DNA of 64,000 nt from a virus. The position numbers and the translations under genes are program-made. The notes under the pieces were generated by a model. That model was not told the DNA's origin. It was given only the letters and a program-made list of their open reading frames with translations, and ran no database searches. Shown one piece after another: positions 3,061-64,000 of the stretch (positions within the stretch are counted from its first letter, which is position 1; every line of letters starts with the position of its first letter). The stretch spans positions 119,469-183,468 of IMG/VR virus record IMGVR_UViG_3300027806_000001. One strand, 5' to 3'.

Positions 3061-4953
3061 TCACTGCGGAGGCGGCACCGGCTGCCTCAGCTGGTCGCGG
3101 CCCTGGCCTTCGGCCTGGGCTGTGGCCTGGTCGAGCATGCTCTTGACGACGGCGTGCATGTTCGGATCCTGGCTCTTGATCTGGTCGAGTATCTGCCTGC
3201 GCTGCGGGCTGCCCAGCGGCGCCGTGGCCATGATCTCCTGGACCCGGGCGTTGGCGTCCGCGAAGAAGCTGTCGATGTCCCTGGACGGTCCCGCCGCGGT
3301 GGGGCCCGCGACGCCGTTCTGAGGCATGGACTGGGGCGCCGCGGCCGGAGGAGCCCCAGGGCCGCCCATCATGAGGTTCGGCCCGCCGGGCACGCCCTCG
3401 CCCGCCATGGCCTGGCCGGGGGCGGCTATGAAGGCTCCCGGAGGAGCGCCGAGCACCTGCTCGTTCTCCTGGGCCTTCTGCATGCGGTCCATGTAGGCCT
3501 TCTCCGCCTTCATCTTGAACTCCTGCTCGGCCTGGCGCTTCTTGTAGGTGTCCTTCCAGTCCAGGTTGAACAGGTTGAGGACGTCCTGCTCCGCGGCCAC
3601 GCCCTGCATCATCATCTGGAGCATGATCATGCGGCGCTCCATGTCGTCGGCGTGCGTCGGGCGGACCAGCCGGGCCTCGCAAGGCAGCCAGCTGAGGATG
3701 GCCGAGACGCGGTCGACGATCCAGGAGAGGACGTCCTGGATGCCGTGCAGGAAGATGGACTCGCCGGCCTCGAACAGGCGGGCGGCGAAGGGCGCCGTCT
3801 GGGCGCTGAGGTTCTTGCGGTAGAGCTCCACCGGAATGCCGAGGCCGTTCAGGAAGTCCGCCTGGGCGTTCTGGAGCAGCTCGGGGGTGACGAAGTTCTT
3901 GCCCTCGCCGCCGAGCAGCTGGTAGTTGACCGGGGTGGGCAGCCACTGCCAGCCGGTGGGGTCCTTGCGGGCGCGCTCGATCGAGCGGGTCACCTGCTGG
4001 CCGAAGCTGCCGATGTTGACGCCCTTCATGACGTCGCCGCCCGCACCGACGGACTGGGGGCTGATGAGCCTGATGGGCAGCATGTGGTCGAGGGCGATGC
4101 ACTCGTTGTTGCGCTTCAGGATCTGCGCCAGGTAGGCGTCGCGGAAGCCTGCGATGACCGGGGGCAGGCCCCAGGGGCCCAGCTTGATGTCGCTGAGGTT
4201 GCCCAGGCTGGTGTGGTGGACCATGCCGGGGCTGAACTTGAACATCCTGCCCTGGCGGACCGACTGCACGATGCCCCACGGCACCGACTCCAGGTAGGCG
4301 CGGTCGGACTTGGAGATGGAGCCGATCTCGGCCGTGGGTACCTCGTAGTAGTACTCGGGCTGGCCGCCGTAGTCGTGGGCCACGATGCGCATCTGCTTGA
4401 CGTGCCACCGCTTGAGGTGGACGCGGTTCTCCTCCCTGGTGGGCATGTCGCTGGGATCCAGGACCTTGACCTCCTGGCCGCACTGGCAGCGGAACCTGAA
4501 GCCGTGCTTGAGCTCGAACCTGTAGTCGACCTGCTCGATAGGGGCCGCAAAGCCGCACTCGGGGCACTGCAGCATGCGCTTGAACGGCGCCAGGACGGAG
4601 ATGAAGCTGTTGCCGTAGACCTTGACGTCCCTGCCGATGGAGAACAGGGCCGACTTGAGGGACATCTTCTCGAGCAGGAATTTCTTGTATTCCTGCTGCT
4701 TGTCCTCGTCGAGGGAGTCGTTGGCACCGCCGATCTCGATGTCGGTGCCGACGAAGTAGGACACGACGTACTCGATGGCCTGGGCGAAGGTCCGGTTGCT
4801 GTAGTACATCAGCTCGGCGATCTCGAACGCCTCGTTGAGGTTGGTCGGCAGGTAGAGGGACGCGTAGTCCAGGAACGGGCTCGGAGCATGCTCGGAGTGC
4901 TCCAGCATGCGCTTGCCGCCGCCTCCGGAAGGGTTCATGGATCCCATCGTCAT
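3061..4953 (-). CDS. Portal protein with an embedded zinc ribbon, 630 aa
   Basis: Forms the dodecameric DNA channel at the head vertex and docks the terminase. The fold signature is typical: an N-terminal helical region naming a YLP...EAFEIAELMYYSNRTF stretch, a clip/wing region, then HHTSLGNLSDIKLGPWGLP and the stem/crown helices with GLGIPVELY (about residue 390) and AARLFEAGESIF. Length fits the family. Unusual is a CxxC (130, 133) and CxC (156, 158) pair inside the wing that looks like a zinc ribbon. The C-terminus is a Met/Gln/Pro/Gly-rich tail. I chose the ATG at 4953 (GAGGG about 9 bases upstream); a second ATG lies 15 bases downstream. Confidence 0.85.
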   Translation of the reverse strand: MTMGSMNPSGGGGKRMLEHSEHAPSPFLDYASLYLPTNLNEAFEIAELMYYSNRTFAQAIEYVVSYFVGTDIEIGGANDSLDEDKQQEYKKFLLEKMSLKSALFSIGRDVKVYGNSFISVLAPFKRMLQCPECGFAAPIEQVDYRFELKHGFRFRCQCGQEVKVLDPSDMPTREENRVHLKRWHVKQMRIVAHDYGGQPEYYYEVPTAEIGSISKSDRAYLESVPWGIVQSVRQGRMFKFSPGMVHHTSLGNLSDIKLGPWGLPPVIAGFRDAYLAQILKRNNECIALDHMLPIRLISPQSVGAGGDVMKGVNIGSFGQQVTRSIERARKDPTGWQWLPTPVNYQLLGGEGKNFVTPELLQNAQADFLNGLGIPVELYRKNLSAQTAPFAARLFEAGESIFLHGIQDVLSWIVDRVSAILSWLPCEARLVRPTHADDMERRMIMLQMMMQGVAAEQDVLNLFNLDWKDTYKKRQAEQEFKMKAEKAYMDRMQKAQENEQVLGAPPGAFIAAPGQAMAGEGVPGGPNLMMGGPGAPPAAAPQSMPQNGVAGPTAAGPSRDIDSFFADANARVQEIMATAPLGSPQRRQILDQIKSQDPNMHAVVKSMLDQATAQAEGQGRDQLRQPVPPPQ

Positions 4954-24648: not shown

Positions 24649-27225
24649 TTAGGCCGGCAGCTGGACCACGATGATGTTGCCGACTCCTACGTTGTAGTTC
24701 AGGGTGATGGACGTCGCCGTGCCGTAGGCCGCCTGCCTCACCGACGACGCGTTGGCCTGCTTGGCCAGCAGGACGCCCGCCACGTAGACCTGGCACTTGG
24801 GATTCGTCGCGAAGTTCGAAGGCACGACCAGGGCGCCCGGGCTGGACGCGGACTCGTACACCAGCGTCCCCGTGTTCGCCAGGTACACCAGCTGGGTGTC
24901 GAACACCGACAGGGTGAGCGGGTTGGCCGAGGTCCATCCGATCGGCAAGGATACAACGCGGAACGATATCTCGACGATCGCGTTGACGAGTCCGTCGACG
25001 TAGCCCTTGGTGGCGGCGTCGGTGGACGCGGTCGGGGTTCCGACCTCGGAGATCTTGTTGCCGTGCGCCGTGGCGCCGGTGGACGTCGCGGAGAACCTGG
25101 TGGTGCCGTTGACGAACAGCGAGCAGTAGCTGCCTCGGGTCTGCCCCAGGCCGGTGGTGGACTCTCCGGAGAACGAGTAGGTCGGAGTGCCGCTGGTCGA
25201 CGTGCCTCCGTACGTGGCGATCGAGTTGTTCAGGTACACCAGCGGGGTGTTGAATCCCCCGCCGGCTCCGGTGAGGGTCGGACCGGTCATGTTCAGCCGG
25301 AAGAGGGGATTGCCGCTGAGCGAGAATCCGATCTCCGAGCTGGAGTTGGTCATGTACATGGCCAGGGGGCCACGCGACAGCAGGGGATCCGTCGCCGTCG
25401 TGTCGATCTCCACGGACAGGCCGCCCGTGAGGGGCACCGTGCCGTCCGCCCTCAGCAGCCCTGAGGACAGCGTGGAGAACGGCACCCAGGAGGACGTCGT
25501 TCCGGACAGCTGCAGCACGCCGCCGTCCAGGCTGTTCTCCGGCAGCGGGAAGACCGAGTTGGCCGCGGAGACCGGCGCCTTGACCTGGGCCAGGCCGCCG
25601 CCGGACGTCAGCAGGTTGATCCTGCCGGGGCTGGAGACGGAGCCCACGGCCAGGGAACCTCCCTGGTACCGGAGGTTGGGTTCCTCGACGTACCCGGTGC
25701 CGGCGACGGCGATGGCCAGCGCGCCGGCCACCGTGGCGCCCGGGATCCGGCCGTCCACGTACGCCTTGGTGGCCGCGTCCTGGCTCAGCGTAGGGGTGGC
25801 CAGGTTGGAGATCTTGAGGCTCTCCATCGACATGCCGCCGCTGTTGAACTCGACGACCTTGGCGCCCTGGACAGCCACTCCCATGGCATTGGTGGACGCC
25901 CTGAAGACGCCCAGGCCGGTGGCCGATGGGAACGTGTAGGCTGGCTTGGTCGGGTCGTTCTCTCCGACCGTCGCGTCGATGAGGATCTTGGCGGAGGCCG
26001 AGGCGCCCCCGGCGGCCGGCTCGATGCTGGTGGCCGAGATCTTGGCCGTGGCCGCGCCGCCTAGGATCACCTGGACGTCCGTGCCGCCGGAGATGAGGCC
26101 GGCGGTGCCGATGTTCAGCGCCGGCTTGATCACGCTGCCTGCGGCGACGCTCAGGGTCGACGACGGCTGGAGGGCGAAGTCCTTGTTTGCCTCTGCTGTG
26201 TTGACCGTCGAGACGATCGCCTGGCTGCCGATGAAGCGCTGGCCGGAGGCCGAGATCAGCACGATGCCGTCCGAGGACGAGTCGTACCAGATCGATCCCA
26301 CGGGGTTGGAGTTCGGGTCGATCAGGCTGGCGGAGGCCAGGGCCAGGCCGGTGTTCATCTGCAGGTACGGCGCGACGGAGTTGCCTCCCACGTTGGCCGG
26401 CTTGACCGCGCGCCAGACCTCGGCGCCGTCCACCTGCATGACCAGGCGCCGGGCCGCGGCGCCCAGGTTGCCCGGGGTCACGAAGCCGAAGCCGGTGTCG
26501 TACGACGACGAATAGATCGAGCCGTAGCCGCTGAGCACCAGGGACAGCGCCGAGGTCGTGGACGCCGGCAGCGCAAAGGGCTTGGTGTTGGCCAGGTAGT
26601 ACTGGGCCTGGTCGCCGAGCACCGGCTCGGGCATGGGCTGCCAGGACGAGGTGGCCCCGCTGTTCACCAGCACGTAGCCGGGAATCATGGCCGAGGCCGC
26701 AGGCAAGGTGTAGGCCGTGCCGCCCGTGCCGATCCGCAGCCTGTTGACCTCGAAATGGGCGGAGCCGGTCATCGTGACCGACGCCGAGTCAGCCGTGACC
26801 GTCAGGCTGTTGACGACGTGGTTCTCGGCCAGGTCGCCCGAGGTGCTGGTCTGCGAGAACGTGACGCTGTCCACCACGGTGCCGCCGGTGGTGGTGGCGG
26901 CCACCCTCAGGTTCTGCAGGTTGGACGAGCCGTCCAGCAGCCTCAGGGTGAGGTCGGACTCCAGCCTGAGGACCTGGTTGGACGCGAGGTAGGCGTCCAT
27001 CACGGCCTGGACGTTGATCAGGCTGGGCAGCGAGGCGTAGGCCAGGACCGGGCCGGCCGCCACGGACAGCACCTGTCCCACGGACCCGATCGCAGGCAAC
27101 GGGTTCGTCACCTGGTTCAGGACGTAGTCGAAGTTGTCCGCGGCGGCCAGGGCCAGGCCGTTGTGGGCGTCGAGGAGGCCCTTGTCGGACAGCGTGACGA
27201 ACTGCTTGGTCGGGGTCAGTGACAT
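24649..27225 (-). CDS. Tail-fibre-like structural protein, 858 aa
   Basis: Rich in Ser, Thr, Gly, Ala and Val with few Cys, as in phage fibres. Two copies of the fibre-type motif DAATKxYVDG (near residues 488 and 743) are the clearest marker; each follows a conserved Leu/Pro-Thr segment. N-terminal 35 residues are a probable attachment region; the C-terminal 100 form a separate beta domain that may bind the receptor or cap the trimer. No chaperone or peptidase motif is visible at the end. The start has only a weak ribosome site (the gene upstream ends 12 bases away). Confidence 0.75.
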   Translation of the reverse strand: MSLTPTKQFVTLSDKGLLDAHNGLALAAADNFDYVLNQVTNPLPAIGSVGQVLSVAAGPVLAYASLPSLINVQAVMDAYLASNQVLRLESDLTLRLLDGSSNLQNLRVAATTTGGTVVDSVTFSQTSTSGDLAENHVVNSLTVTADSASVTMTGSAHFEVNRLRIGTGGTAYTLPAASAMIPGYVLVNSGATSSWQPMPEPVLGDQAQYYLANTKPFALPASTTSALSLVLSGYGSIYSSSYDTGFGFVTPGNLGAAARRLVMQVDGAEVWRAVKPANVGGNSVAPYLQMNTGLALASASLIDPNSNPVGSIWYDSSSDGIVLISASGQRFIGSQAIVSTVNTAEANKDFALQPSSTLSVAAGSVIKPALNIGTAGLISGGTDVQVILGGAATAKISATSIEPAAGGASASAKILIDATVGENDPTKPAYTFPSATGLGVFRASTNAMGVAVQGAKVVEFNSGGMSMESLKISNLATPTLSQDAATKAYVDGRIPGATVAGALAIAVAGTGYVEEPNLRYQGGSLAVGSVSSPGRINLLTSGGGLAQVKAPVSAANSVFPLPENSLDGGVLQLSGTTSSWVPFSTLSSGLLRADGTVPLTGGLSVEIDTTATDPLLSRGPLAMYMTNSSSEIGFSLSGNPLFRLNMTGPTLTGAGGGFNTPLVYLNNSIATYGGTSTSGTPTYSFSGESTTGLGQTRGSYCSLFVNGTTRFSATSTGATAHGNKISEVGTPTASTDAATKGYVDGLVNAIVEISFRVVSLPIGWTSANPLTLSVFDTQLVYLANTGTLVYESASSPGALVVPSNFATNPKCQVYVAGVLLAKQANASSVRQAAYGTATSITLNYNVGVGNIIVVQLPA

Positions 27226-42418: not shown

Positions 42419-42639
42419 GTCGCCGGCCTCCTGATCGGCTTGCATATCTCCGCCTTCACGGTGGCCTTGCCGTCGTGCCACTGGACCGCGATGCGGGTGT
42501 GGTCGGCCTCGTAGCGGACCGAAAGGGACTCGATCGGCACCGGCTCGCCGTTCGAGAGCCGGGTCTGCAGCAGGGCGGCATGTATCTGCAGCTCCAGCAG
42601 GATGTAGGACAGCGTCGGCAGACTGTCGCACGTGCTCAT
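42415..42639 (-). CDS. Small hypothetical protein, 74 aa
   Basis: Helical start then a beta segment with HTRIAVQWHDGKATVKAEIC. GGAGGG before the ATG, which overlaps the SbcC-like stop. Function unknown. Confidence 0.5.
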   Translation of the reverse strand: MSTCDSLPTLSYILLELQIHAALLQTRLSNGEPVPIESLSVRYEADHTRIAVQWHDGKATVKAEICKPIRRPAT

Positions 42640-44810
42640 GATCCCTCCAGCTCGATGTGGCGGCAGCCGTGGGCGGCCAGCGCCGGACTGTGCGTGATGA
42701 CGATGAACTGGCGGCCGGACGCCTGGCCCAGCCTGGCCAGGTAGCTGAACGCCTCCGCCAGGTCCCTCGAGTTCGACTCCTGCATGGCTCCAGACGGCTC
42801 GTCCAGGGCGAGGACGCCCAGGGTGCTGGCGAAGACGTCGTTGACCGCCAGGAGGTAGCAGACGCTGGCCTGCTGCTTCTGGCCGCCGGAGAGGCGCTTC
42901 GCCGAGTGGACCAGGCCGTCGTTCTTCCTCGCCATGAACTCCAGGCTCTCGTCGATGTAGGCGGTGAAGTCCGCCCGCACCGTCTGCAGGTAGAAGTCCA
43001 GCCGCTCGTTCAGCGCCTGGATGTACTGCATGGAGAGGATCCTCGGCAAGGCGTCCTTGGCCAGGGCGGTGCCCGCCAGGGACAGGACCTGCCTGAACCT
43101 GATGGTCGGCTCGACCGCGGCCTTGCGCTGCTCCTGTACGAGCACCTTGGCCTCGGCCCGCTCCACGGAGGTCTTCAGCTGCTGCAGGACGCCCTTGAGC
43201 CGGATGGCGTCGGCCGCCACCGCATCGGAGTCCTGGCGCGCCTTGAGCAGCCTGGCGTGCTCGTGAGGATCGAACCTGACGTCCGGGATATCGTCCAGCT
43301 TGTCCTGGAGGTCGGCCTGCACCGTCTCGGAGTCGGTCAGGTGGTCCCTCAGGGACGAGATGCCGGACTCCGCCGCCGAGATGCTCCGCAGCAGCATGTC
43401 GTGCAGCCGGGCCCGCTCGGCCAGCTGGGTCTTGATCTGAGGGGTCATGGGGGCGGGCACGCCCACCTCGTCCAGCTCGGCCTGGATCCTGTTGGCCTCC
43501 TCCAGGGCCTTGGCCGCCTTGGCGGAGTAGGAGGCCGAAGCCGAGTCGTGGAGCCGCCAGGCCTCCGCCAGGCCGCGGATCTCCGTCAGCCTGGAGGCCT
43601 CCTCGGCCTTGAGCGCCCGGGATGCCGCCAGCTGGTCGGACATCTCCTGCAGCTGGTCGCCAGGCAGCGCCGTGCTCTGACCGCACTCCGAGCACTGGCC
43701 CTTGGCCGCCAGGGCCACCTTGCGGGCCAGGTCGGCCTCCAGCAGGCGGATGTCCGACAGGCTGTCCAAGCACTGCTGCTCGTCGTCCTTGCTCGGCCTC
43801 TCCTTGGCGGGGGCGACCGGCTCGGCTGCCAGCAGGCCGTCCAGCTCGGCCTGCGACGAGGCGGCCTTGGCCAGCAGGCGGCTCCTGCGCTCGTTGGCCT
43901 GCAGGAGCAGGTCTGCCGAGTACAGGTTGCGCTTGGCCTCCTCGGCCTCCTCGCGGGTCGCCTCCTCCTTGGCACGGTACGAGACCAGGCTGGAGACCTC
44001 GTTCTCAAACCGGGTCTTCAGCTGGGCCTGCCGGGCGGTCTCCTCGCGGATGCGGGAGGCCAGGTCCTTGCGCCGCTGCTCCTGGAGCTGGTCCCGCTGC
44101 ATCTGGTCGAGCCGAGCCCTGATGACGTCGATGTCCAGGGTCTTGAGGGCCTGGAGCGCCTGGTCCAGCTCGCCGCGGCGGCCAGCCTGTTCGCCTAGCA
44201 GGGTGTTGCGCTCATGGATGGCCTCGGCCAGCGGACCCTCGACGTCGGGCACCGTGACGGTCGCCATCAGGTCGCGGACGCCGCACCGGACCTGCTCCAT
44301 CTCGGAAGCCCTGGTCAGGACGTGCAGGGTCTCCTTGAACTTGGCAGGGGTGGCCGAGACGGGAGCCGTGATCGAGTCCTGGTCGACGACCAGGTGCCCG
44401 TCGATGACGGAGGCCGGCAGAGGGATCATCGACTGGGCGCGGTCGAGCGCCTCCTTGGAGCCCTCGACGTCCTCGACCTGGCCCGAGTCGTGCTCGATGC
44501 GCAGGCGGGGAATGCCGAGTCCGGCGAACCGGCGGTCGCCGGCCAGGCACTTGGCGATGTGCAGCACCTTGCTGCCGATGCGCCAGCTGGCCACGAAGTA
44601 CGACAGGTCGCCGGACTCGATGCCCCAGGAGACCCAGCTGGACACGCCGCCGGGAAAGGAGTTGGTGAGGGAGGCCCGGATCATGGTCAGCAGCGTGGAT
44701 TTGCCGCTGCCGATCGGACCGGTGATGACTGTGAGCGAGTCGTCGAACTCGAACTCGAAGTCGCCGCGGAGCAGGCCGACGTTGCGGCCCTTGAGTGAGA
44801 TCAGCTTCAT
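42636..44810 (-). CDS. SbcC/Rad50-like ATPase (T4 gp46 type), 724 aa
   Basis: SMC-type: N-terminal Walker A GPIGSGKS (31-38), long coiled coils interrupted by a zinc-hook-like CSEC near the middle, signature RLSGGQKQQ (639-647) and Walker B VLALDEPSGAM (about 667-677). With the SbcD-like nuclease it makes the exonuclease that resects DNA ends for recombination. The hook differs from the common CPxC only in Ser. ATG has a weak ribosome site. Confidence 0.85.
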   Translation of the reverse strand: MKLISLKGRNVGLLRGDFEFEFDDSLTVITGPIGSGKSTLLTMIRASLTNSFPGGVSSWVSWGIESGDLSYFVASWRIGSKVLHIAKCLAGDRRFAGLGIPRLRIEHDSGQVEDVEGSKEALDRAQSMIPLPASVIDGHLVVDQDSITAPVSATPAKFKETLHVLTRASEMEQVRCGVRDLMATVTVPDVEGPLAEAIHERNTLLGEQAGRRGELDQALQALKTLDIDVIRARLDQMQRDQLQEQRRKDLASRIREETARQAQLKTRFENEVSSLVSYRAKEEATREEAEEAKRNLYSADLLLQANERRSRLLAKAASSQAELDGLLAAEPVAPAKERPSKDDEQQCLDSLSDIRLLEADLARKVALAAKGQCSECGQSTALPGDQLQEMSDQLAASRALKAEEASRLTEIRGLAEAWRLHDSASASYSAKAAKALEEANRIQAELDEVGVPAPMTPQIKTQLAERARLHDMLLRSISAAESGISSLRDHLTDSETVQADLQDKLDDIPDVRFDPHEHARLLKARQDSDAVAADAIRLKGVLQQLKTSVERAEAKVLVQEQRKAAVEPTIRFRQVLSLAGTALAKDALPRILSMQYIQALNERLDFYLQTVRADFTAYIDESLEFMARKNDGLVHSAKRLSGGQKQQASVCYLLAVNDVFASTLGVLALDEPSGAMQESNSRDLAEAFSYLARLGQASGRQFIVITHSPALAAHGCRHIELEGS

Positions 44811-46329: not shown

Positions 46330-46361
46330 TTTCTTCCTCTTTCGATGGGTTGGGGTGCGAG

Positions 46362-46480
46362 GCCGGACCCCTCGACTCCTGCGTACGTTATATGGCCTCT
46401 ATATACCTAGGGGTTCTACCTATGGGTATACCTATTAGGTTATACAATCATCTAACGTACGCAACAGTCGGGGGTCCGGC
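46362..46480. repeat. Long imperfect inverted repeat enclosing AT-rich TACCTA iterons (origin candidate)
   Basis: Arms 46362-46390 and 46453-46480 pair over about 26 positions, including a perfect 11-bp TGCGTACGTTA / TAACGTACGCA at the inner end, with a small internal loop and one bulge. The 62-base middle is very AT-rich for this genome and holds three units of TACCTAnnGG starting at 46404, 46417 and 46429. No gene is present. Layout (iterons, AT-rich core, inverted repeat) is that of a replication origin or a protein-binding control site. Confidence 0.55.
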
Positions 46481-46493
46481 TCCAGGGGTCGTG

Positions 46494-47027: not shown

Positions 47028-50000
47028 TCAGGCGATGTTCGCGGAATATGCCGGCATTCCCGGCACGGTCCTGATCAGCCACACGCCTCGATCGTTGTTG
47101 TCCACGTTGGACGGGGTCATTATCGTCGCAGGCAGGTCCGTCTGGCCGGCGTCGGTCCTGGAGAGGGACACGACGTTCGGAGCAACGGTGATGCGCCAGA
47201 TGTACCTCGGCACCATGGATCCCACGACCATGCCTCCGCTGACGACCATGCGGGCGGCCTGGTTCAGCTGGAGCCGGTCTACGGGCTGCGAGACGCTGCC
47301 GGCCTGGTTGGAGCAGGGCCGGACCTTCTTGTCGTTCGAGATCCTCGACCACTCGTCGATGGCCCGCTGCATGAAGTGGTCGTCGGCCACCGGCTGGTTG
47401 AAGTACTGGATGAACTTCGCCCCCGCCAGGAACGAGTGGTAGCAGATCTCGTTGAAGTACTTGGCTCCGCCGGAGTCCGTGCCGTACCGGCTGAAGCTGT
47501 TCTGCGCCACAGGGGAGCAGATCCACGGCGCCAGGTCCTGCCAGGCCTGCGGATAGGACCGCAGCATGCCTCGAAGCCTCACGCAGTCGGTGACGAACGC
47601 CATGTAGAGGGCGCTGGGCATGGCCGTCGCTCCGGCGGTCCAGGCGTACCTCTGGGCGTCCGTGGTCGGCGACGGGACGTAGCCGTAGCCTGAGTAGAAG
47701 CCTCCCGACAGCTCGCCGTAGAGCACCGGCGCCGCGCCGATGTCCGGCATGGCGTTCACCTTGGGCCCGGAGTAGTGGCCGTTGCTCTCGAAGACGTACC
47801 TGCCCTCCTCGACGCTCAGCGGAAACTTGGCGTAGTTGTAGTACCCAGGCATCTGCCCGGTGGCGTCCAAGTAGGCCGGTAGCCCGGCCCACTTGCCAAG
47901 GTTGTGCTGGATGCAGGTCATCGCCTCCAGGACGGAGGTCCACGCATGCCATATGGCCCTGGACTCGTCCGTGCCGATGCCCCACGGGGACCTGAAGTCC
48001 TGCCTCGAGGAGATGTTGGTGTAGATCCCCATCAGCGACCTGGCCGCGGCGACCTTGTCGGCAGGCGTCGGGATGGTCGCGCCGAACTGAGCCCGGATGG
48101 CCTGGTAGTAGTCGAAGAACAGCTCCGCGAAGGACTTGCCCTGGTACACAGGGGTCGTGCCGAACCTGACGTCGTCGACGATCGCGACCGTCCTGCGGGG
48201 ATCGGGAACGGTCTTCCAGCTCGTGTTCGGGTTGGTCGTCCAGCCGGCAGGCAGGCCGTTGACGTCGAACGTGCCGTCGTAGGCGTTGTACGGCGAACCC
48301 AGGCCCAGGCCGTTCCAGCCCTCCCAGTCGTCGCAGACCAAGTTGATCTCGGCTCCCCGCTGGCGCAGGGCGGACAGGGTGGCCGTGATCGATGCTCCGC
48401 AGTGGGCGGTGCTGGTGTAGGCCCACGGCGTCATGAACCTCAGCGGGCTGGGATCGCCGTAACCGACGATGTTGCCGGTATAGGTCGTGCCGTCGGAGGT
48501 CGCGGCGTAGTAGTTGTTGAGGTTCAGTTCCTCGTTCGGAGGGGACTCGTACATCCAGTAGGTCGGCAGGATCGCCCGCCTGTTTGGCGGCCGGGACATG
48601 ATCTCGTTCACCAGGTTGTCGAGCGCGGTGCCCGAAAGGGCGGCTCCCGGCCCCGGAGGACGGATCCCTGGAACGTTGACCAAGGGCACCACGTCCTTGA
48701 TCGCTGTTCCGTTGGATGTAGTGCCAAGAACGTTGTTGTTGGTCCAGCATGCAGACCAGACCCTCTGGTTCTCGCCGAGGCCGGGACTGGAGGAGTTGAT
48801 GTCGGCGGGCAGTACCTGGATGCTGACGTAGTCGTCGGGGTAGGTGTTGCCTGCCCAGCTGGGGGATTCGATCGAGCCTCCCTGCAGGGCCCGGATGCGC
48901 TGCACCAGATCCAGCATCAGCAGCTCGAGTCCGTCCTTGATTGCCTGGGCCGTGGCGGGCAGGGCCCAGTAGGCGTCGTCCGAGGTCGAGACGGTCTGGC
49001 CGGGCATGAACCTGGCCGCGTAGGCGGCGCGGATGGCCAGCTGGGAGGTCCTGGTGGGATCTCCGACCGGGGCCAGCGCCGAGAACAACAGGGTGCTGTG
49101 CTCGCTCCACGGGTGATGCACGACGACCGCGTCGGCGCCCTTGAGCAGGGCTGGGACGACGCAGTTGCCGATGATCTGGGCCGGGTGGGTGAATGTGTAG
49201 TCCCCGACTCCGGAGTTGGACGAGACGTTCAGCAGCTCGAACGACCTCATGCAGAGCCGGACGACCGCGACGGATTCCTTGGACGGGTTGTCGGCCTTGA
49301 ACGCCTGGATGGCGCCCATGACGTCCTCGGACATCATCCGGTCGGCCTGGTCGTCGTCGACTATGAATGAGGCCATCCGCACGCTCTGCCTCAGCACGGC
49401 GGCCGCGAGGTCGGAGTCCGCCAGGACGTCGGCGGCCTGGTACCCGATCCACCTGGAGGCGGCGTCGCGGGTCGCGGAATCCGCGCGGTCGATGCGGACG
49501 TAGTCGCCCTCGCAGTTGGGGTTGAGCGGAGAGCCGAGGTCGCAGAGCAGGGGCTCCATCCTGGGGACGTCCAGGAAGCCCCACTTCTTGGCCGGGTAGG
49601 CCGCGCGCACCGCCTGCAGGCAGGACTTCATCGAGGCGATCGTCGAGGCCCTGGTGGCGTACGGAGGGACCTGCGGTTCGTAGAGCGGTCCGCCTTGCAG
49701 CAGGGAAACGTACGGGGTGGCAAAGTCCAGCAGGACCATCTCCGAGGAGGCCACGGTCGGCAGCACCCCGAGGGACAGCCCTCCGGTGCCCGCTATGCGG
49801 GCAAGCAGTTCGGCCGAATCGATCGTGCCGAGCGTAGAGTCGTGCGTCTGGTTGGCCTTGGCTTGCGGGATCATGCAGCAGCGCTTCGCCCCGAGGACGG
49901 TGAACTGCGGGAGGCCGGTCTCGTAGGGCAGCTCTGAGACGTAGACGTCGACCTCCCGCATGACCGGGAGCTTCGCGGATGGAGGAGCCGCCAGCGACAC

Positions 50001-51710
50001 GAAGTCCGCCAGGAACTGCACGAAGGCCGAGAACGACGGCCGGCGCACCTGGGTGTCCCAGTAGGTGTTGCCTTCCGGCGTCCAGTAGCCTTCCGAGTAG
50101 GTGGCCGGGTTGGCCAGGAAGCTCGTCTTGTTGAACGCTGGACGATACGAGTCGAAAACGGCGTAGGTCACGCGGGCGTACTGCGTTATGTCGGAGCCGT
50201 TGTAGGCGTAGTGGACGCTGCCTCCGCCGAAGATCTCGTGGCCTACCGCGATCAGCGCCGGCGTCTTGACGTAGACGCCCTTGTGCTGCTCGCGGCCCTG
50301 CTTCAGGTTGAAGTAGTTCCTGTAGTTGTCGGCCAGGTTGTAGAGGGCGTCGAGCCTGTAGTGCGGCGTGTAGTAGGTGACCCTGCCGGCCAGGATCTCG
50401 TCCAGGAGGTTTCTCCTGGCCGCGCCGCTGGCCACGACGTGAGTGCCTCCGAGCGGCTCCTTGGACGCCTGGACCGGGTAGTTGGAGTCCTGCACGTGGA
50501 ACAGCTTGCCGGCCTGCTCGTTCGACAGGAAATCCTTGAACCCCGGATCGCCGAGATCGGGATCGGAGAAGCGCAGCCAGTAGTAGCCAGCCGAAAACTT
50601 TCTCCACTCGGACTGCGTGGCCTGCGGAGATGGAATGGATCCAAGTCCGGAGTTTGGCGCGGTCATAGTCAGGCGAGGACGGGACTCGATGAAGACCTCG
50701 ATGCCCGCCTGCTCCAGCTGGGTGGCGATGTACCAGTCCGACAGCTCGTGGATGTCCGAGCGGCTGTCCGCCAGTTGCCTGAACAGGGACAGGGTGGACG
50801 GGGTGGCCGCCTCGCTGCCGACGTCGAGCGTGACGTACAGCCTGCCCGAGCCGGGGGTGCGGCCCCGCATGGCCTTGAAGTCCTCGACCAGGTCGTCCAG
50901 GAGCGCCTTGTAGGCTGTGTCGCGTTCCGCGGCGGTGGCCCCCAGGGAGTCCCAGATGGCGATCGTCTTGCCCCGCCAGACGGGATCGCCGGCAAACCCC
51001 TCGTGGTAGATCATCACGTTGGACGGTTCGAGGATAGGCGGCCGGCTGCCCGGCACCATGTTTCCCTCGATCAGGGACCGGATGGCCTGCGTATAGCCCA
51101 TCCACATGGCCGGAGACTGGTACAGCGGAGTGGAGACGCCGGCACTGGTGAACGTCCTCTTGCGCATCGTCCTGCCGAGGCCGTTGCGCTCGAGCAGGCC
51201 GCCTCCGGCCTGGAACCCGCCGTTCGGCCAGTAGATGCAGAAGCTCCTGGCTCCCCACTCGTGAAGGGGCTGGAAGGCCTCGTAGATGGCGTTGTGCCAG
51301 GGGCTCGAGACCTCAGGGTCGGCAGGGATCTTCTCGATCGGATAGGCCCGGCCGGCGATTCCTCCGGACGGGTGCGGGCTGCCCTGCAGGAACGAGATGA
51401 TGTCGGCCTGGGTTCCCAGCCAGTCCGACTGCCCTGGATTGGTGTTGTTGCCGAAGAACCGCTGGAAGAAGATGCGGTTGGCTTCCTGCAGCTCTGGATC
51501 GCCCTGGGGGGGCGCCGTGCCGGCCGCCCTCTGCACAGGCGGAGCGAACCGAGGATCGCCCTCCAGGGGCGCCTTGGGCTGCCTGAGCGCGCCCAGGAAG
51601 TCCTGCGAGATGGTCGGTCCGACCGGGGCAGGCGCCACGGCGCCGTCGTAGACCAGGCCGGCGTCTCGGTGCATGGCGTCGGGATTGCCGGATCTATCGG
51701 GGGTCGTCAT
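47028..51710 (-). CDS. Giant protein of unknown function, probable virion component, 1,560 aa
   Basis: One continuous frame with virion-like composition: many Tyr, Trp, Asn, Ser, Pro and few Lys. The middle and C-terminal parts carry motifs seen in TIM-barrel glycoside hydrolases, such as INLVCDDWEGWNGLGLG and WGFLDVPRMEPLL, but catalytic residues cannot be assigned. N-terminal 60 residues are disordered and Pro-rich. Not an RNA polymerase or tape measure (no long coiled coils). A receptor-binding or polysaccharide-acting tail protein is my best guess. Start ATG at 51710 has a poor ribosome site and overlaps the stop of a small upstream gene, so coupling is likely. Confidence 0.6.
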   Translation of the reverse strand: MTTPDRSGNPDAMHRDAGLVYDGAVAPAPVGPTISQDFLGALRQPKAPLEGDPRFAPPVQRAAGTAPPQGDPELQEANRIFFQRFFGNNTNPGQSDWLGTQADIISFLQGSPHPSGGIAGRAYPIEKIPADPEVSSPWHNAIYEAFQPLHEWGARSFCIYWPNGGFQAGGGLLERNGLGRTMRKRTFTSAGVSTPLYQSPAMWMGYTQAIRSLIEGNMVPGSRPPILEPSNVMIYHEGFAGDPVWRGKTIAIWDSLGATAAERDTAYKALLDDLVEDFKAMRGRTPGSGRLYVTLDVGSEAATPSTLSLFRQLADSRSDIHELSDWYIATQLEQAGIEVFIESRPRLTMTAPNSGLGSIPSPQATQSEWRKFSAGYYWLRFSDPDLGDPGFKDFLSNEQAGKLFHVQDSNYPVQASKEPLGGTHVVASGAARRNLLDEILAGRVTYYTPHYRLDALYNLADNYRNYFNLKQGREQHKGVYVKTPALIAVGHEIFGGGSVHYAYNGSDITQYARVTYAVFDSYRPAFNKTSFLANPATYSEGYWTPEGNTYWDTQVRRPSFSAFVQFLADFVSLAAPPSAKLPVMREVDVYVSELPYETGLPQFTVLGAKRCCMIPQAKANQTHDSTLGTIDSAELLARIAGTGGLSLGVLPTVASSEMVLLDFATPYVSLLQGGPLYEPQVPPYATRASTIASMKSCLQAVRAAYPAKKWGFLDVPRMEPLLCDLGSPLNPNCEGDYVRIDRADSATRDAASRWIGYQAADVLADSDLAAAVLRQSVRMASFIVDDDQADRMMSEDVMGAIQAFKADNPSKESVAVVRLCMRSFELLNVSSNSGVGDYTFTHPAQIIGNCVVPALLKGADAVVVHHPWSEHSTLLFSALAPVGDPTRTSQLAIRAAYAARFMPGQTVSTSDDAYWALPATAQAIKDGLELLMLDLVQRIRALQGGSIESPSWAGNTYPDDYVSIQVLPADINSSSPGLGENQRVWSACWTNNNVLGTTSNGTAIKDVVPLVNVPGIRPPGPGAALSGTALDNLVNEIMSRPPNRRAILPTYWMYESPPNEELNLNNYYAATSDGTTYTGNIVGYGDPSPLRFMTPWAYTSTAHCGASITATLSALRQRGAEINLVCDDWEGWNGLGLGSPYNAYDGTFDVNGLPAGWTTNPNTSWKTVPDPRRTVAIVDDVRFGTTPVYQGKSFAELFFDYYQAIRAQFGATIPTPADKVAAARSLMGIYTNISSRQDFRSPWGIGTDESRAIWHAWTSVLEAMTCIQHNLGKWAGLPAYLDATGQMPGYYNYAKFPLSVEEGRYVFESNGHYSGPKVNAMPDIGAAPVLYGELSGGFYSGYGYVPSPTTDAQRYAWTAGATAMPSALYMAFVTDCVRLRGMLRSYPQAWQDLAPWICSPVAQNSFSRYGTDSGGAKYFNEICYHSFLAGAKFIQYFNQPVADDHFMQRAIDEWSRISNDKKVRPCSNQAGSVSQPVDRLQLNQAARMVVSGGMVVGSMVPRYIWRITVAPNVVSLSRTDAGQTDLPATIMTPSNVDNNDRGVWLIRTVPGMPAYSANIA

Positions 51711-51930: not shown

Positions 51931-54871
51931 GAGCGACTCCAAGGATCTAGTGACAGAGGGGATGCCCGAGCTGCCGGACTGGCTCAGGAAGATGGTTTCC
52001 GGCATGAAGTCCCTGAGGGAGATCGACCAGCTCGACGACCTCATCATGACCATGCCGGCGGAGAGGCTGAAGGAGCTGCACGGCCGTTTGGACATGGACC
52101 TGTTCAAGAGGTTCATGGAGTGGCACGTGGCGTCGAACCCCTCCTCGCCCGTCAGGCTGACGTCGCTGCTGAGGATCAACGGCAGGCCGTTCACCCTGTC
52201 GAAGCATCCGTTCTTCGAGCCGATGTTCTACCCGGACCTGCCTGATTCCCTGCTGCTGGTGTGCGCCCGTCAGGTGGGTAAAGCCCTGAGCGTCGATACT
52301 CCGGTGCCCACGCCGTCAGGCAGGTGCAGGATCCGCGACCTGAAGTCCGGCGACTTCGTGCTCGGCATTCACGGAACTCCGGTCAAGGTGCTGGCCGTGT
52401 CTCCAACGTTGCCTGCGCCGGTCTCCTTCAAGGTGTCGTTCAACGACGGCCACTCCGTCCTGGCCTGCGAGGACCACCTGTGGACCGTCCACCACCCCGT
52501 GGGTGGCAGGCAGGGCAGGCGGACCATGAAGATCCGAAGGCAGGAAACGCTGACCACCCGTCAGCTGCTGGACCGCGGAGTCATGATGAAGCAGGAATAC
52601 CGGTTCGCCCTGCCGGAGGTCAAGCCGGTCGAATTCCCGGAGGCCGACCTGCCCATCGACCCCTACGTCCTGGGCGTCTGGCTGGGGGACGGACACAGCT
52701 CATGCGGCCGGATCTCCTCCCACATGGACGACCCCGCGGTCGTGGACGAGGTCTCGAGCGTCTACCCTGTCTACACGGTTGGCAGGTGCAGGGGCTCCAA
52801 GGGGATCTACTTCAACGTGCTGGGATTGAAGAGCCGTCTTCGAGGACTGGGGCTGTTGAACGACAAGCGCATTCCGATCGAATACCTGCGGGCCAGCGTC
52901 TCTCAGCGCCTGGCCTTGCTGCAAGGCCTCATGGACACGGACGGAACCGTGACACCCCGGGGCCTGTGCTCGCTGGGATTCTCGAATCAGCGCCTGGCCG
53001 ACGACGCGTTCGAGCTGCTGTGCAGCCTGGGATTGGTCGTCAAGAGGTCGACCAAGCAGCCGAAGTACCCGGGCTCCAAGCTGCATCACAGGATGAACTT
53101 CACGGCCCGCAGGGACGAGCTGCCGGTGTTTCGCCTGCCGCGAAAGCTGATGAGGATGAGGACGGCGGCAGAAGCCAAGGGCAAGCCGACCCAGACGCGA
53201 TGCAAGAAGATCGTCTCGATCGAGCCTGCGGGCCCGGTCCCCATGTGCTGCATCGAGGTGGACAGCCCGGACGGACTCTATCTTTGCGGGGACAGCTGGA
53301 TCCCCACGCACAACAGCACACACCTGGCGGCGCAAGGGGTGCTGCAGGCGGGGGCGCTGCCGCGCTTCAAGATCCTCTTCATGGCGCCGCAGTTCGAGCA
53401 GATCCGGCGCTTCAGCCACCAGTACATCCGCCAGTTCGTCCACGAGTCCTACATCAAGGACGAGCTGATGGACCGCGGCTCGGTCGACTCGGTCATGCAG
53501 AAGGGGTTCCGCAACGGGTCGGAGCTGTGGTTCTCGTTCGCGAAGATGTCGGTGGACCGCGTCCGCGGCCTCTCGGTCGACGCGATCCGCATCGACGAGG
53601 TGCAGGACATGAACCCGGAGTTCCTGGACATCGTCCGGGAGTGCATGTCGGCGTCCGAGCGCAGGTCGGAGATGTACTCCGGCACCAGCAAGACCGTCGA
53701 CAACACCATCGAGCAGCTGCGCCTCAGGTCCAGCCAGGCGGAGTGGTTCATGAGGTGCGAGTCGTGCTCGCACTGGAACATCCCCACGGTCGAGGGGTCG
53801 GGCCAGGGCCTGGGCGTCATGGAGATGATCCGTCCCGAGGGCATGAGCTGCGCCAAGTGCCGGGCGCTGCTCAGCCCGGAGCGGGGCCAGTGGGTGCACC
53901 GGTACGTGGAGCGGGCCAAGACCTTCCCCAGCTACCACATCCCCCAGGTGATCTGCCCCGTCCACTACGCCAACCCCAAGAACTGGCGCAGCCTGCTGGC
54001 CAAGCGGGACAGGACCTCCACGGCGACGTTCGTCAACGAGGTGCTGGGCGAGGCCTGCGACGCCGGGCAGCGGCTGGTGAGCCTGACGGAGCTCAAGCAG
54101 GCCTGCGTCCTGGGCCCCAACACCCCGGACAGCGCGTCGCTCGCCGACAGGTACGTCGACCGGGTGCTGGGGGTCGACTGGGGCGGCAAGGGCACCAACT
54201 TCCAGTCCTTCACGGCCGCCGCGGTGGCCTGCTACTCGCCGGGCCAGGACCGCATCGACGTTCTGTTCGGCAAGGTATTCCAGGCCCTGATGGACCCGGT
54301 CATCGAGACCAAGGAGGTCATCGACCTGTCCAGCAAGTACTCCTGCACGCTGATCGCCCACGACGTGGCCGTCGCAGGAGAGGTGCGCAGGAGCATCATG
54401 AGGAGCATGGGAGTGCACGACGGCCGCCTGGCGAACTGCCGGTATGCGGCCAGCGGCAGCATCAAGGCCATCCTCCAGCACGTGCCGTCGACCGACATCA
54501 ACCCGACCGAGTACTACAACCTGGACAAGAGCCAGGTCGTGTCCGCGGTCTGCCTGGCCATCAAGAACGGCAGCATCCGCTTCCCGCAGTACGAGACCAT
54601 GAAGGACGACTCGGGGAACAACATGCTGGAGCACTTCCTGGCCGTGTACGAGGAATCCTCCGAGAGCATGTTCGGATCCGAGAAGAGGTTCATCAGGCGC
54701 AACCCCGGCATGCCAGACGACTTCCTGCACGCGGTGGCCTTCGCGGTCATCGTGCTGTGGAGGCGCTATCCGGAGCTGGTGCCCGACCTGATGGACGCGG
54801 TGCTCGACGGGGACGAGCTGGCGTCCTTCGGCGACCCCAGGGCCTACTACATGCCGGGCGACATGGATTGA
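51929..54871 (+). CDS. Large terminase subunit interrupted by an intein, 980 aa precursor
   Basis: Packaging motor ATPase and nuclease. The extein P-loop CARQVGK/STHLAAQ is split by the intein (52283-53314); mature length is about 636 aa. Walker B AIRIDEVQD, a zinc-type pair CESC ... CAKC, and nuclease acids in VDWGGKG, HDVAVAGE and DDFLHAVAF follow in order. Splicing is needed before ATP can be bound. ATG 51929 has only a weak ribosome site, and GTG 51950 (AAGGA upstream) is a possible alternative start. A strong promoter overlaps the stop codon. Confidence 0.85.
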   Translation: MSDSKDLVTEGMPELPDWLRKMVSGMKSLREIDQLDDLIMTMPAERLKELHGRLDMDLFKRFMEWHVASNPSSPVRLTSLLRINGRPFTLSKHPFFEPMFYPDLPDSLLLVCARQVGKALSVDTPVPTPSGRCRIRDLKSGDFVLGIHGTPVKVLAVSPTLPAPVSFKVSFNDGHSVLACEDHLWTVHHPVGGRQGRRTMKIRRQETLTTRQLLDRGVMMKQEYRFALPEVKPVEFPEADLPIDPYVLGVWLGDGHSSCGRISSHMDDPAVVDEVSSVYPVYTVGRCRGSKGIYFNVLGLKSRLRGLGLLNDKRIPIEYLRASVSQRLALLQGLMDTDGTVTPRGLCSLGFSNQRLADDAFELLCSLGLVVKRSTKQPKYPGSKLHHRMNFTARRDELPVFRLPRKLMRMRTAAEAKGKPTQTRCKKIVSIEPAGPVPMCCIEVDSPDGLYLCGDSWIPTHNSTHLAAQGVLQAGALPRFKILFMAPQFEQIRRFSHQYIRQFVHESYIKDELMDRGSVDSVMQKGFRNGSELWFSFAKMSVDRVRGLSVDAIRIDEVQDMNPEFLDIVRECMSASERRSEMYSGTSKTVDNTIEQLRLRSSQAEWFMRCESCSHWNIPTVEGSGQGLGVMEMIRPEGMSCAKCRALLSPERGQWVHRYVERAKTFPSYHIPQVICPVHYANPKNWRSLLAKRDRTSTATFVNEVLGEACDAGQRLVSLTELKQACVLGPNTPDSASLADRYVDRVLGVDWGGKGTNFQSFTAAAVACYSPGQDRIDVLFGKVFQALMDPVIETKEVIDLSSKYSCTLIAHDVAVAGEVRRSIMRSMGVHDGRLANCRYAASGSIKAILQHVPSTDINPTEYYNLDKSQVVSAVCLAIKNGSIRFPQYETMKDDSGNNMLEHFLAVYEESSESMFGSEKRFIRRNPGMPDDFLHAVAFAVIVLWRRYPELVPDLMDAVLDGDELASFGDPRAYYMPGDMD
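52283..53314 (+). other. Class 3-like intein with LAGLIDADG endonuclease, 344 aa
   Basis: Starts with Ala (ALSVDTPVPTPSG) in place of the usual Cys/Ser and ends PTHN before Ser+1. A Trp in block B (CEDHLW, W67), Cys in block F (CC at 322-323) and Thr before the terminal His-Asn form the W-C-T set that marks class 3 inteins, which use the block F Cys as first nucleophile. Two dodecapeptides LGVWLGDGH (130-138) and LLQGLMDTDG (212-221) identify a DOD homing endonuclease. Inserted after the P-loop Lys, a conserved motif typical of intein sites. Confidence 0.85.
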
Positions 54872-63220: not shown

Positions 63221-64000
63221 TCAGACCCTGCCTTCGGTGCTCGAGCTTCCGTAGAACTCGCCGGCTGAGAGGAGATTGCGGCTTGGCATGAGGGACTGCT
63301 GGCCGCCGGTGGCCGGGCAACTGCCCTGGAACGTGAGCTGCTCGTCGAAGAACCACACGATCTTGCACGAGCAGTCGGCCTGGGTGGCTTCCTTCGCCCA
63401 CGGCACGTAGCCGTAGAGCAGGATCGGGGTGTCGTTCATCACGGGCACGGGGTAGTAGCCCTTCTCGTACATAGCCACCAGGTCCGTGCCCGGAGGGAGA
63501 TGGGTCGCCGTGCCTGTCCTGGGCAGCACCGTCTCCTTGATGTTGAAGGCGGTCATCTCGCCTGGGCTGGTGCCGGGCGGGACTATGCCGTGACCAACCT
63601 CGCCCTGCTCGTACCACTTGTCCGCAGTCGTGCAGGTGGCGTTGTCGATGGAGCCCAGGTTGCTTCTCAGGATGTCCCTGATGTTGCCCACCAGCTCCGC
63701 CTTGTACTCCCAGGTCGTGATTATCGACACGCCTCCGGGCCCCGGAACGCCGCCTATGCTGCTGGAGCTCTTGACCTTGGCCAGCATGGGGCCGATGATG
63801 CTGTAGTTCGAGACCTGGGAGCCGAACGCCTCCTTGCCGTTGCACTGGTTGCAGTCGTACTCCTCGGTCCAGGGGGTGACGGGGATGAAGCTCTCGGCGC
63901 CGAACTCCTCGGCGAAGAACGCCTCCGGCGTGGTGTAGTCGTCGAAGTCGGGCCCGAGGTTGCCGATGCGGTAGCCCCTGCCGAGCGAGGTGTAGCCGCA
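63221..64000 (-). CDS. Probable structural protein, partial at the window edge, 259 aa visible
   Basis: The frame is open from the stop at 63221 to the right edge, so the start lies outside. Near the visible beginning is ESFIPVTPWTEEYDCNQCNG with a CxxC. Beta-rich, Gly/Thr/Pro-rich, with several Cys (CTTADKWYEQG, ADCSCKIVWFF), typical of a virion decoration or tail protein. No family recognised. Confidence 0.6.
   Translation of the reverse strand, partial: CGYTSLGRGYRIGNLGPDFDDYTTPEAFFAEEFGAESFIPVTPWTEEYDCNQCNGKEAFGSQVSNYSIIGPMLAKVKSSSSIGGVPGPGGVSIITTWEYKAELVGNIRDILRSNLGSIDNATCTTADKWYEQGEVGHGIVPPGTSPGEMTAFNIKETVLPRTGTATHLPPGTDLVAMYEKGYYPVPVMNDTPILLYGYVPWAKEATQADCSCKIVWFFDEQLTFQGSCPATGGQQSLMPSRNLLSAGEFYGSSSTEGRV

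Follow-up and report, generated by a model that had tools for sequence, protein, structure and literature searches.

Between an SbcD-like gene and a small membrane-protein-like gene of a GC-rich phage lies a 119-bp palindromic stretch without any gene, which raises the question whether it is a chance repeat or a functional site and, if so, of which kind. The sequence-only reading of this locus had proposed a possible replication origin made of AT-rich iterons inside a long inverted repeat. We analyzed a window of 64,000 nucleotides that covers positions 119469-183468 of a phage record of 183,468 bp; genes outside the window were called by a simple in-house prediction. The record is classed linear and carries an exact direct repeat of 127 bp at both ends (window 63874-64000 and record positions 1-127) and is therefore probably complete. 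As far as 171 kb, almost every gene is on the minus strand. Features are collected in Table 1.

Table 1. Coordinates of the palindromic element, its neighbors and the compared loci (window positions unless stated otherwise).
Feature	Position	Strand	Remarks
Whole palindromic element, copy 2	46362-46480 (record 165830-165948)	.	Inverted repeat; folds; matches copy 1
Unit common to copies 1 and 2	46370-46476		
Outer stem, left half	46362-46369	.	GCCGGACC; copy 2-specific; pairs with right outer half
Left arm	46369-46394	+	Contains TGCGTACGTTA; exact arm in copy 1 is 15 bp
AT-rich core	46395-46448	.	54 nt; holds three TACCTA units
Right arm	46449-46474	+	TCTAACGTACGCAACAGTC; resembles TCTAACATAGCAAACGTCA of relatives
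Outer stem, right half	46473-46480	.	GGTCCGGC; based on sequence and folds
Copy 1	record 63913-64020 (outside the window)		
SbcC-like ATPase	42636-44810	-	PHROG 77, E=1e-22; AAA_23 over cut-off
SbcD-like gene, 381 aa	45184-46329	-	Start lies at 32 nt from the element; four relatives have an orthologue (56% identity)
Small membrane-protein-like gene, 107 aa	46494-46817	-	Order with SbcD-like gene kept in relatives without the element there
Terminase large subunit	51962-54871	+	In relatives, element site B directly downstream
Site A (relatives)			Upstream of gene X or a gene X relative
Site B (relatives)			Between convergent genes: large terminase subunit and 891-aa protein with N-terminal zinc-finger-like stretch
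Salmonella phage Arash, five loci (L174-L177)	26628-26785, 66375-66532, 100131-100288, 138476-138637, 173252-173409		26.7, 66.5, 100.2, 138.6 and 173.3 kb
Vibrio phage D69, three loci (L170-L173)	67356-67690, 125060-125447, 185200-185589		

The element is an inverted repeat in a gene-free gap, as had been described. Its two arms of 26 nt are 85% complementary, the pairing extends outward via GCCGGACC and GGTCCGGC with an offset of one base, and the gap (46330-46493) is enclosed by two minus-strand genes. Compared with dinucleotide shuffles, the two strands gave fold z-scores of -6.2 and, for the sense strand, -8.9, and none of 200 shuffles reached the native folds. In a genome-wide comparison, an ungapped arm score of 14-15 with a loop of 40-80 nt falls within the range of Markov-resampled genomes, so that the arms alone are weak evidence. 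The AT-rich core in GC-rich DNA was likewise borne out: it is 61% AT in a genome of 66% GC and is near the top in AT content among 60-bp stretches genome-wide. The supposed iterons held up in part. Three TACCTA units are present at 46404, 46417 and 46429, spaced by 13 and 12 nt, but 10-14% of dinucleotide shuffles also contain some 6-mer three times (P 0.10-0.14), and neither TACCTA nor any such repeat unit is repeated in the cores of relatives. Repeats beyond chance that are also conserved, as would mark an iteron-type origin, were thus not found in the TACCTA triplet. Rfam gave no match within the window at gathering thresholds, no sigma-70-type promoter was called on the element, and no intrinsic terminator was called on either copy, the loop being as long as the core.

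Outside the window, the genome holds a second copy (copy 1) that is 97% identical over 108 bp and has the same orientation. Chance cannot account for it. The two copies lie about 102 kb apart on one contig (distances 101.9 and 81.4 kb), and they are the most similar pair of dispersed repeats among the matches listed in the self-comparison, the terminal repeat aside. No further copy exists in the genome; a 12-mer from the core that recurs at record position 117157 is isolated, has no palindrome around it and was taken as chance. Both copies are located at or just past the upstream stop codon, ahead of a metallophosphoesterase-type gene. The gene after copy 1 matches PHROG 547 (E=5e-50), while the SbcD-like gene at copy 2 is named by context only; it has no HMM match, and its protein has no PHROG or Pfam match at E<=0.01.

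The proximity to replication and recombination genes, also noted in the sequence-only reading, proved correct and comprises polymerase A, a UvsX-like protein, a primase, a DnaB-like helicase, a second helicase and SbcC. Several other features of this genome deserve mention. A gene of 1560 aa (window 47028-51710) between the neighborhood of copy 2 and the terminase has no PHROG match, and a fragment alone is recognizable in relatives. The large terminase subunit has 969 aa compared to 641 aa in relatives and contains an inner LAGLIDADG-like stretch (E 3e-4, just under the cut-off); the length difference together with this stretch indicates that the insertion is probably an intein. The block by the terminase at record positions 174-182 kb (window 54.8-62.5 kb) is rearranged relative to the related contigs G001 and G003; compared with these two, the homologue of the 891-aa zinc-finger gene is encoded on the other strand and has a changed place in the gene order. 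Large arrays of diverged, partly coding repeats were seen outside the window at record positions 65.9, 72, 80-82, 84-87 and 104-110 kb.

Replication proteins used as IMG/VR queries matched the same virus only. With the RNA-polymerase beta'-like protein we obtained nine related IMG/VR contigs, eight of them at 77-84% identity; related IMG/VR phages that carry the element have capsid proteins up to 90% identical. The contig G001 (174,569 bp) has end repeats and looks complete, and it matches 107 genes of the present genome, largely in the same order. The sequence-only reading had suggested a search for the same element in relatives, and the outcome was mixed. Two other metagenomes, 3300005528 and 3300042691, yielded contigs of the same virus (99.96-100% identical) with copy 2, and a family of such elements is found elsewhere in relatives, but the orthologous junction between the SbcD-like and the membrane-protein gene measures about 75-80 nt and is empty in G001, G002, G003 and G005. 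A BLAST-type search did not find the element DNA in the nine related contigs, and phage and plasmid collections held no credible match to it. A partial match in the human-gut phage MT835492 (E 0.05) was rejected, as no inverted repeat was seen there.

The family was detected by scanning for inverted repeats with long arms and long loops, followed by a search with the arm pattern. G001 (43244-43358) and G009 (3907-4024) each contain one element, of 115 and 118 bp, with arms of 22 and 28 bp and an AT-rich core, and both elements lie directly upstream of the same gene X. A further element, L128 (3240-3353), was found via contigs with gene X and shows two compensated differences in its arms. The elements of related phages have conserved arms, with a family arm core of about TGACGTTTGC(G)TAYGTTA, and an AT-rich core of 62-71 nt. 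When the copies described here were compared with the elements of G001, G009 and L128 using palindrome-preserving shuffles, we obtained p values of 0/1000, 0.002 and 0.002. The best alignment is in the right arm, where TCTAACGTACGCAACAGTCA here corresponds to TCTAACATA-GCAAACGTCA in G009, and scores against this genome were reached by none of the shuffled queries (0/40 and 0/40). Ranks of whole-genome windows were dropped and scores used instead: the elements came first in several comparisons, but the AT-rich copies let shuffled queries reach rank 1 as well, in about 10% of trials. A profile built from the nine closest elements (excluding this genome and G001) missed the copies here and in G001 under default filters and, unfiltered, gave weak matches at the G001 element only; homology therefore rests on the pairwise tests. 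On these tests, the copies here are probably, though not certainly, homologous to the elements of the relatives. The consensus RNA fold of all 12 elements was weak, as the arms of different lineages are misaligned by MAFFT. Taken together, these comparisons, in which related phages were found to have one or two matched copies of such an element, indicate that the element is a conserved cis site of this phage group and not a chance repeat.

Two observations made during these searches stand apart. Genomes of Salinicoccus and Jeotgalicoccus contain several copies of a dispersed hairpin of about 78 bp that ends in CGTACGTTAG/CTAACGTACG (L048-L071, e.g., L053:1940-2016). Kinship with the phage elements was considered and set aside, as the common letters are mostly imposed by the search pattern, which probably explains the likeness to the phage arms. 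In L104 (4040-4065) and at site A of L160, the interval from the element to gene X contains an extended -10-like TTTGCTATAAT within a few bases of the start codon, which suggests a nearly leaderless transcript in these relatives.

The arm pattern of the G009 type was found in 12 contigs at two conserved places, sites A and B. Within one apparent genome, to which A and B contigs were assigned by co-occurrence in the same or sister samples and by element identity itself, the two copies are 99-100% identical, whereas identity between lineages is 72-93%, a range that understates the true divergence since the search pattern itself fixes 20 bases of the element. For instance, the elements of L155 (A) and L159 (B) are 100% identical while their flanks are at background, and the pairs L157 (A)/L164 (B) and L161 (A)/L163 (B) are 100% and 99% identical. 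Conversely, the B sites of L156 and L159 have flanks that are 92% and 78% identical and elements that are just 75% identical. In the virus described here, both copies lie on one contig. Because A and B are nearly identical within a genome and yet diverge between lineages, these alignments indicate that the two copies evolve in concert. The core of the A/B elements keeps its length (62-63 nt) and its AT content (71-81%) while its sequence drifts. Six pairs of the outer arms show compensatory changes, with both sides altered, and 1 of 500 shuffles attained the covariation score; the inner 14 arm pairs are invariant, ten of them being demanded by the search pattern. Site occupancy differs: site B is empty in G001 and G003, with an unrelated small hairpin in its place in G001, and site A is empty in G000. 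The gene contexts of the copies are upstream, convergent or co-directional, and such differing contexts fit poorly with a regulator of a single gene. Moreover, the unrelated contexts, the conserved inverted arms, a spacer that keeps its length while its sequence drifts and the small copy number argue for a site that serves the genome rather than a single gene. A DNA-level site for genome maintenance, perhaps an origin, fits these observations best.

The sequence-only reading had pointed to GC skew as a check on its proposal, and this check did not favor it. The raw cumulative skew has its maximum near 62 kb and a local minimum near 161 kb, close to copies 1 and 2. We rejected these turns as support for an origin, as the skew at four-fold-degenerate sites shows no change of sign at either copy, these sites staying G-rich on the plus strand at each of the two. 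This constant sign, together with a genome in which one strand carries nearly all genes, means that the raw turn near 62 kb reflects gene content. Four-fold-degenerate skew does not change sign at site A of G001 either, so that an inflection of strand composition, a common but not universal trait of origins, is absent from all three places. No initiator was recognized among the proteins scanned. What is generally expected of an origin, an AT-rich unwinding region beside a conserved sequence that resembles binding sites, is present both here and in the relatives, in the form of the core and the conserved arms.

Known replication origins offer several parallels. Phage SPP1 has two origins of similar organization, oriL and oriR, which consist of repeats and an AT-rich unwinding element and of which one is intergenic; their direct repeats are bound by gp38, and they are about 13 kb apart (PMC6316719). 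Two sites of one organization per genome and an AT-rich element are found here too, and the A/B pairs of the relatives repeat this arrangement, although G001 has one copy only. The inverted arms and the separation of 102 kb are different from SPP1, and the origin role is a candidate one here. OriS of herpes simplex virus consists of inverted binding boxes with an AT-rich spacer between them (PMC12543377). The element shares with OriS/OriL the inverted boxes, the AT-rich spacer, the palindrome-like form and the presence of several redundant copies per genome, but this is an animal virus without sequence relation, so that the architecture alone is compared. Phage T4 uses at least five origins on a genome of roughly 170 kb, with minimal origins of about 100 bp that contain an A+T-rich unwinding element (PMC3016281). 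A genome of similar size can therefore use several origins; T4 origins, however, have no common motif and involve promoter R-loops (PMC3016281), whereas the copies here are near-identical palindromes. In Cluster O mycobacteriophages, AT-rich intergenic candidate origins in a GC-rich genome were proposed without experiment (PMC4351075). These resemble the present element in composition and intergenic position but are not a palindromic unit in two copies.

Based on the comparison with SPP1 and herpes simplex OriS, initiation of replication would be the most natural function, and an origin is plausible. We envisage that a phage protein binds both arms symmetrically, that the easily melted AT-rich core of roughly constant length opens, and that helicase and primase load there. 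The element would then be one of a few redundant start sites, like oriL/oriR and OriS/OriL, and its copies would be homogenized via recombination by the phage's own machinery. We view the element as a conserved non-coding site of this phage group that is present here in two matched copies, and tentatively assign it a role as replication start, with a confidence that stays somewhat below even.

Other explanations account for parts of the data. MITE- and REP-type prokaryotic repeats are short, non-coding, palindromic and dispersed, and the element could be a small non-autonomous palindrome of this sort, MITE- or REPIN-like, which is copied between intergenic sites, tends to land in existing hairpins and brings no benefit to the phage. 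Like such repeats, it is a short non-coding dispersed palindrome with empty sites in relatives: it occupies at least four genomic sites among them, the copy-2 junction and site B (G001/G003) as well as site A (G000) occur without it, copies within a genome are near-identical, and outer palindromes specific to the site enclose the unit in copy 2 and at site A. However, there are only one or two copies per genome and never more, and no partner transposase was found; the four families searched, integrase (PF00589), Y1 transposase (PF01797), TnpB zinc-ribbon (PF07282) and serine recombinase (PF00239), are absent from the phage genome. By inspection, the ends of neither copy show a target-site duplication in register, and lineages with elements that differ by up to 28% have the same two sites, A and B, at which the elements change together. 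Mobility is the best explanation for the shifting positions and the empty sites, but not for joint evolution at two fixed sites, and we consider it rather unlikely as the account of the whole.

The strong fold of the sense strand would also suit an element that acts as RNA, that is, a transcribed long hairpin with the role of a terminator, a processing site or a regulator in the 5'-UTR of the gene downstream. In this genome a metallophosphoesterase-type gene begins shortly after each copy, site B is placed between convergent genes, and in G009 and L128 an A-run and a T-run border site A in the manner of a bidirectional terminator. Yet most site-B copies have no T-run, and neither terminator calling at the two copies nor Rfam at gathering thresholds supported such a function. 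Furthermore, the loop of 54-71 nt drifts in sequence while arms and length are kept, the identity of the element tracks the genome and not the downstream gene, and the G001 element lies between divergent genes. A function as RNA therefore appears clearly unlikely. More improbable still is a site for recombination, packaging or segregation in two copies, for example one related to terminase or partition. Site B adjoins the terminase gene, concerted evolution implies recombination between the copies, and the even spacing of comparable loci in two distant phages (see below) would suit genome organization or segregation. On the other hand, site A is tens of kilobases away from the terminase, none of the recombinase families searched was found, and pac sites are usually single.

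To return to the reading as matched sites that may act as origins, a comparable layout was found in two distant phages, chosen by a polymerase subunit of 26-28% identity and read over their full genomes. Salmonella phage Arash has five AT-rich inverted-repeat loci of 160-240 bp that are 84-98% identical, lie in one orientation and are the sole dispersed repeats of such quality genome-wide. Vibrio phage D69 has three AT-rich inverted-repeat loci of about 390 bp that are 76-82% identical. The Arash loci are separated by gaps of 33.8-39.7 kb, an evenness equaled by 5 of 100,000 random placements (P=5e-5), and those of D69 are 57.7-68.8 kb apart (P=0.007), both values coming from a test chosen after the positions were seen. 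In the same test, the spacing of the two copies described here was not significant (P=0.11). Only small steps in skew are seen at the Arash copies. Rhizobium phage RHph_TM21B, our negative control, has no dispersed repeats and was rejected as a further case. We also rejected the Arash and D69 loci as homologues of the present family, as one comparison alone gave a low value (p 0.008); since sequence homology is not established, they are taken as an analogy. A term search of the description of Arash (PMC10585845) found no mention of its repeats, and in the literature searched we found no description of an evenly spaced layout of matched palindromic AT-core loci for phages. It is conceivable, though on balance improbable, that several lineages of large phages carry near-identical, homogenized palindromic AT-core loci at roughly equal distances (two here, three in D69, five in Arash), which would be regularly spaced redundant origins or genome-organizing sites kept alike via recombination.

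If the copies are origins, they would provide a sequence signature for replication start sites in large uncultivated phages, for which GC skew is of no help. The joint change of matched copies within each genome also offers a natural experiment in how distant sites of one phage chromosome recombine. Importantly, Arash is a cultivated phage with an evenly spaced set of five copies, which makes the idea directly testable.
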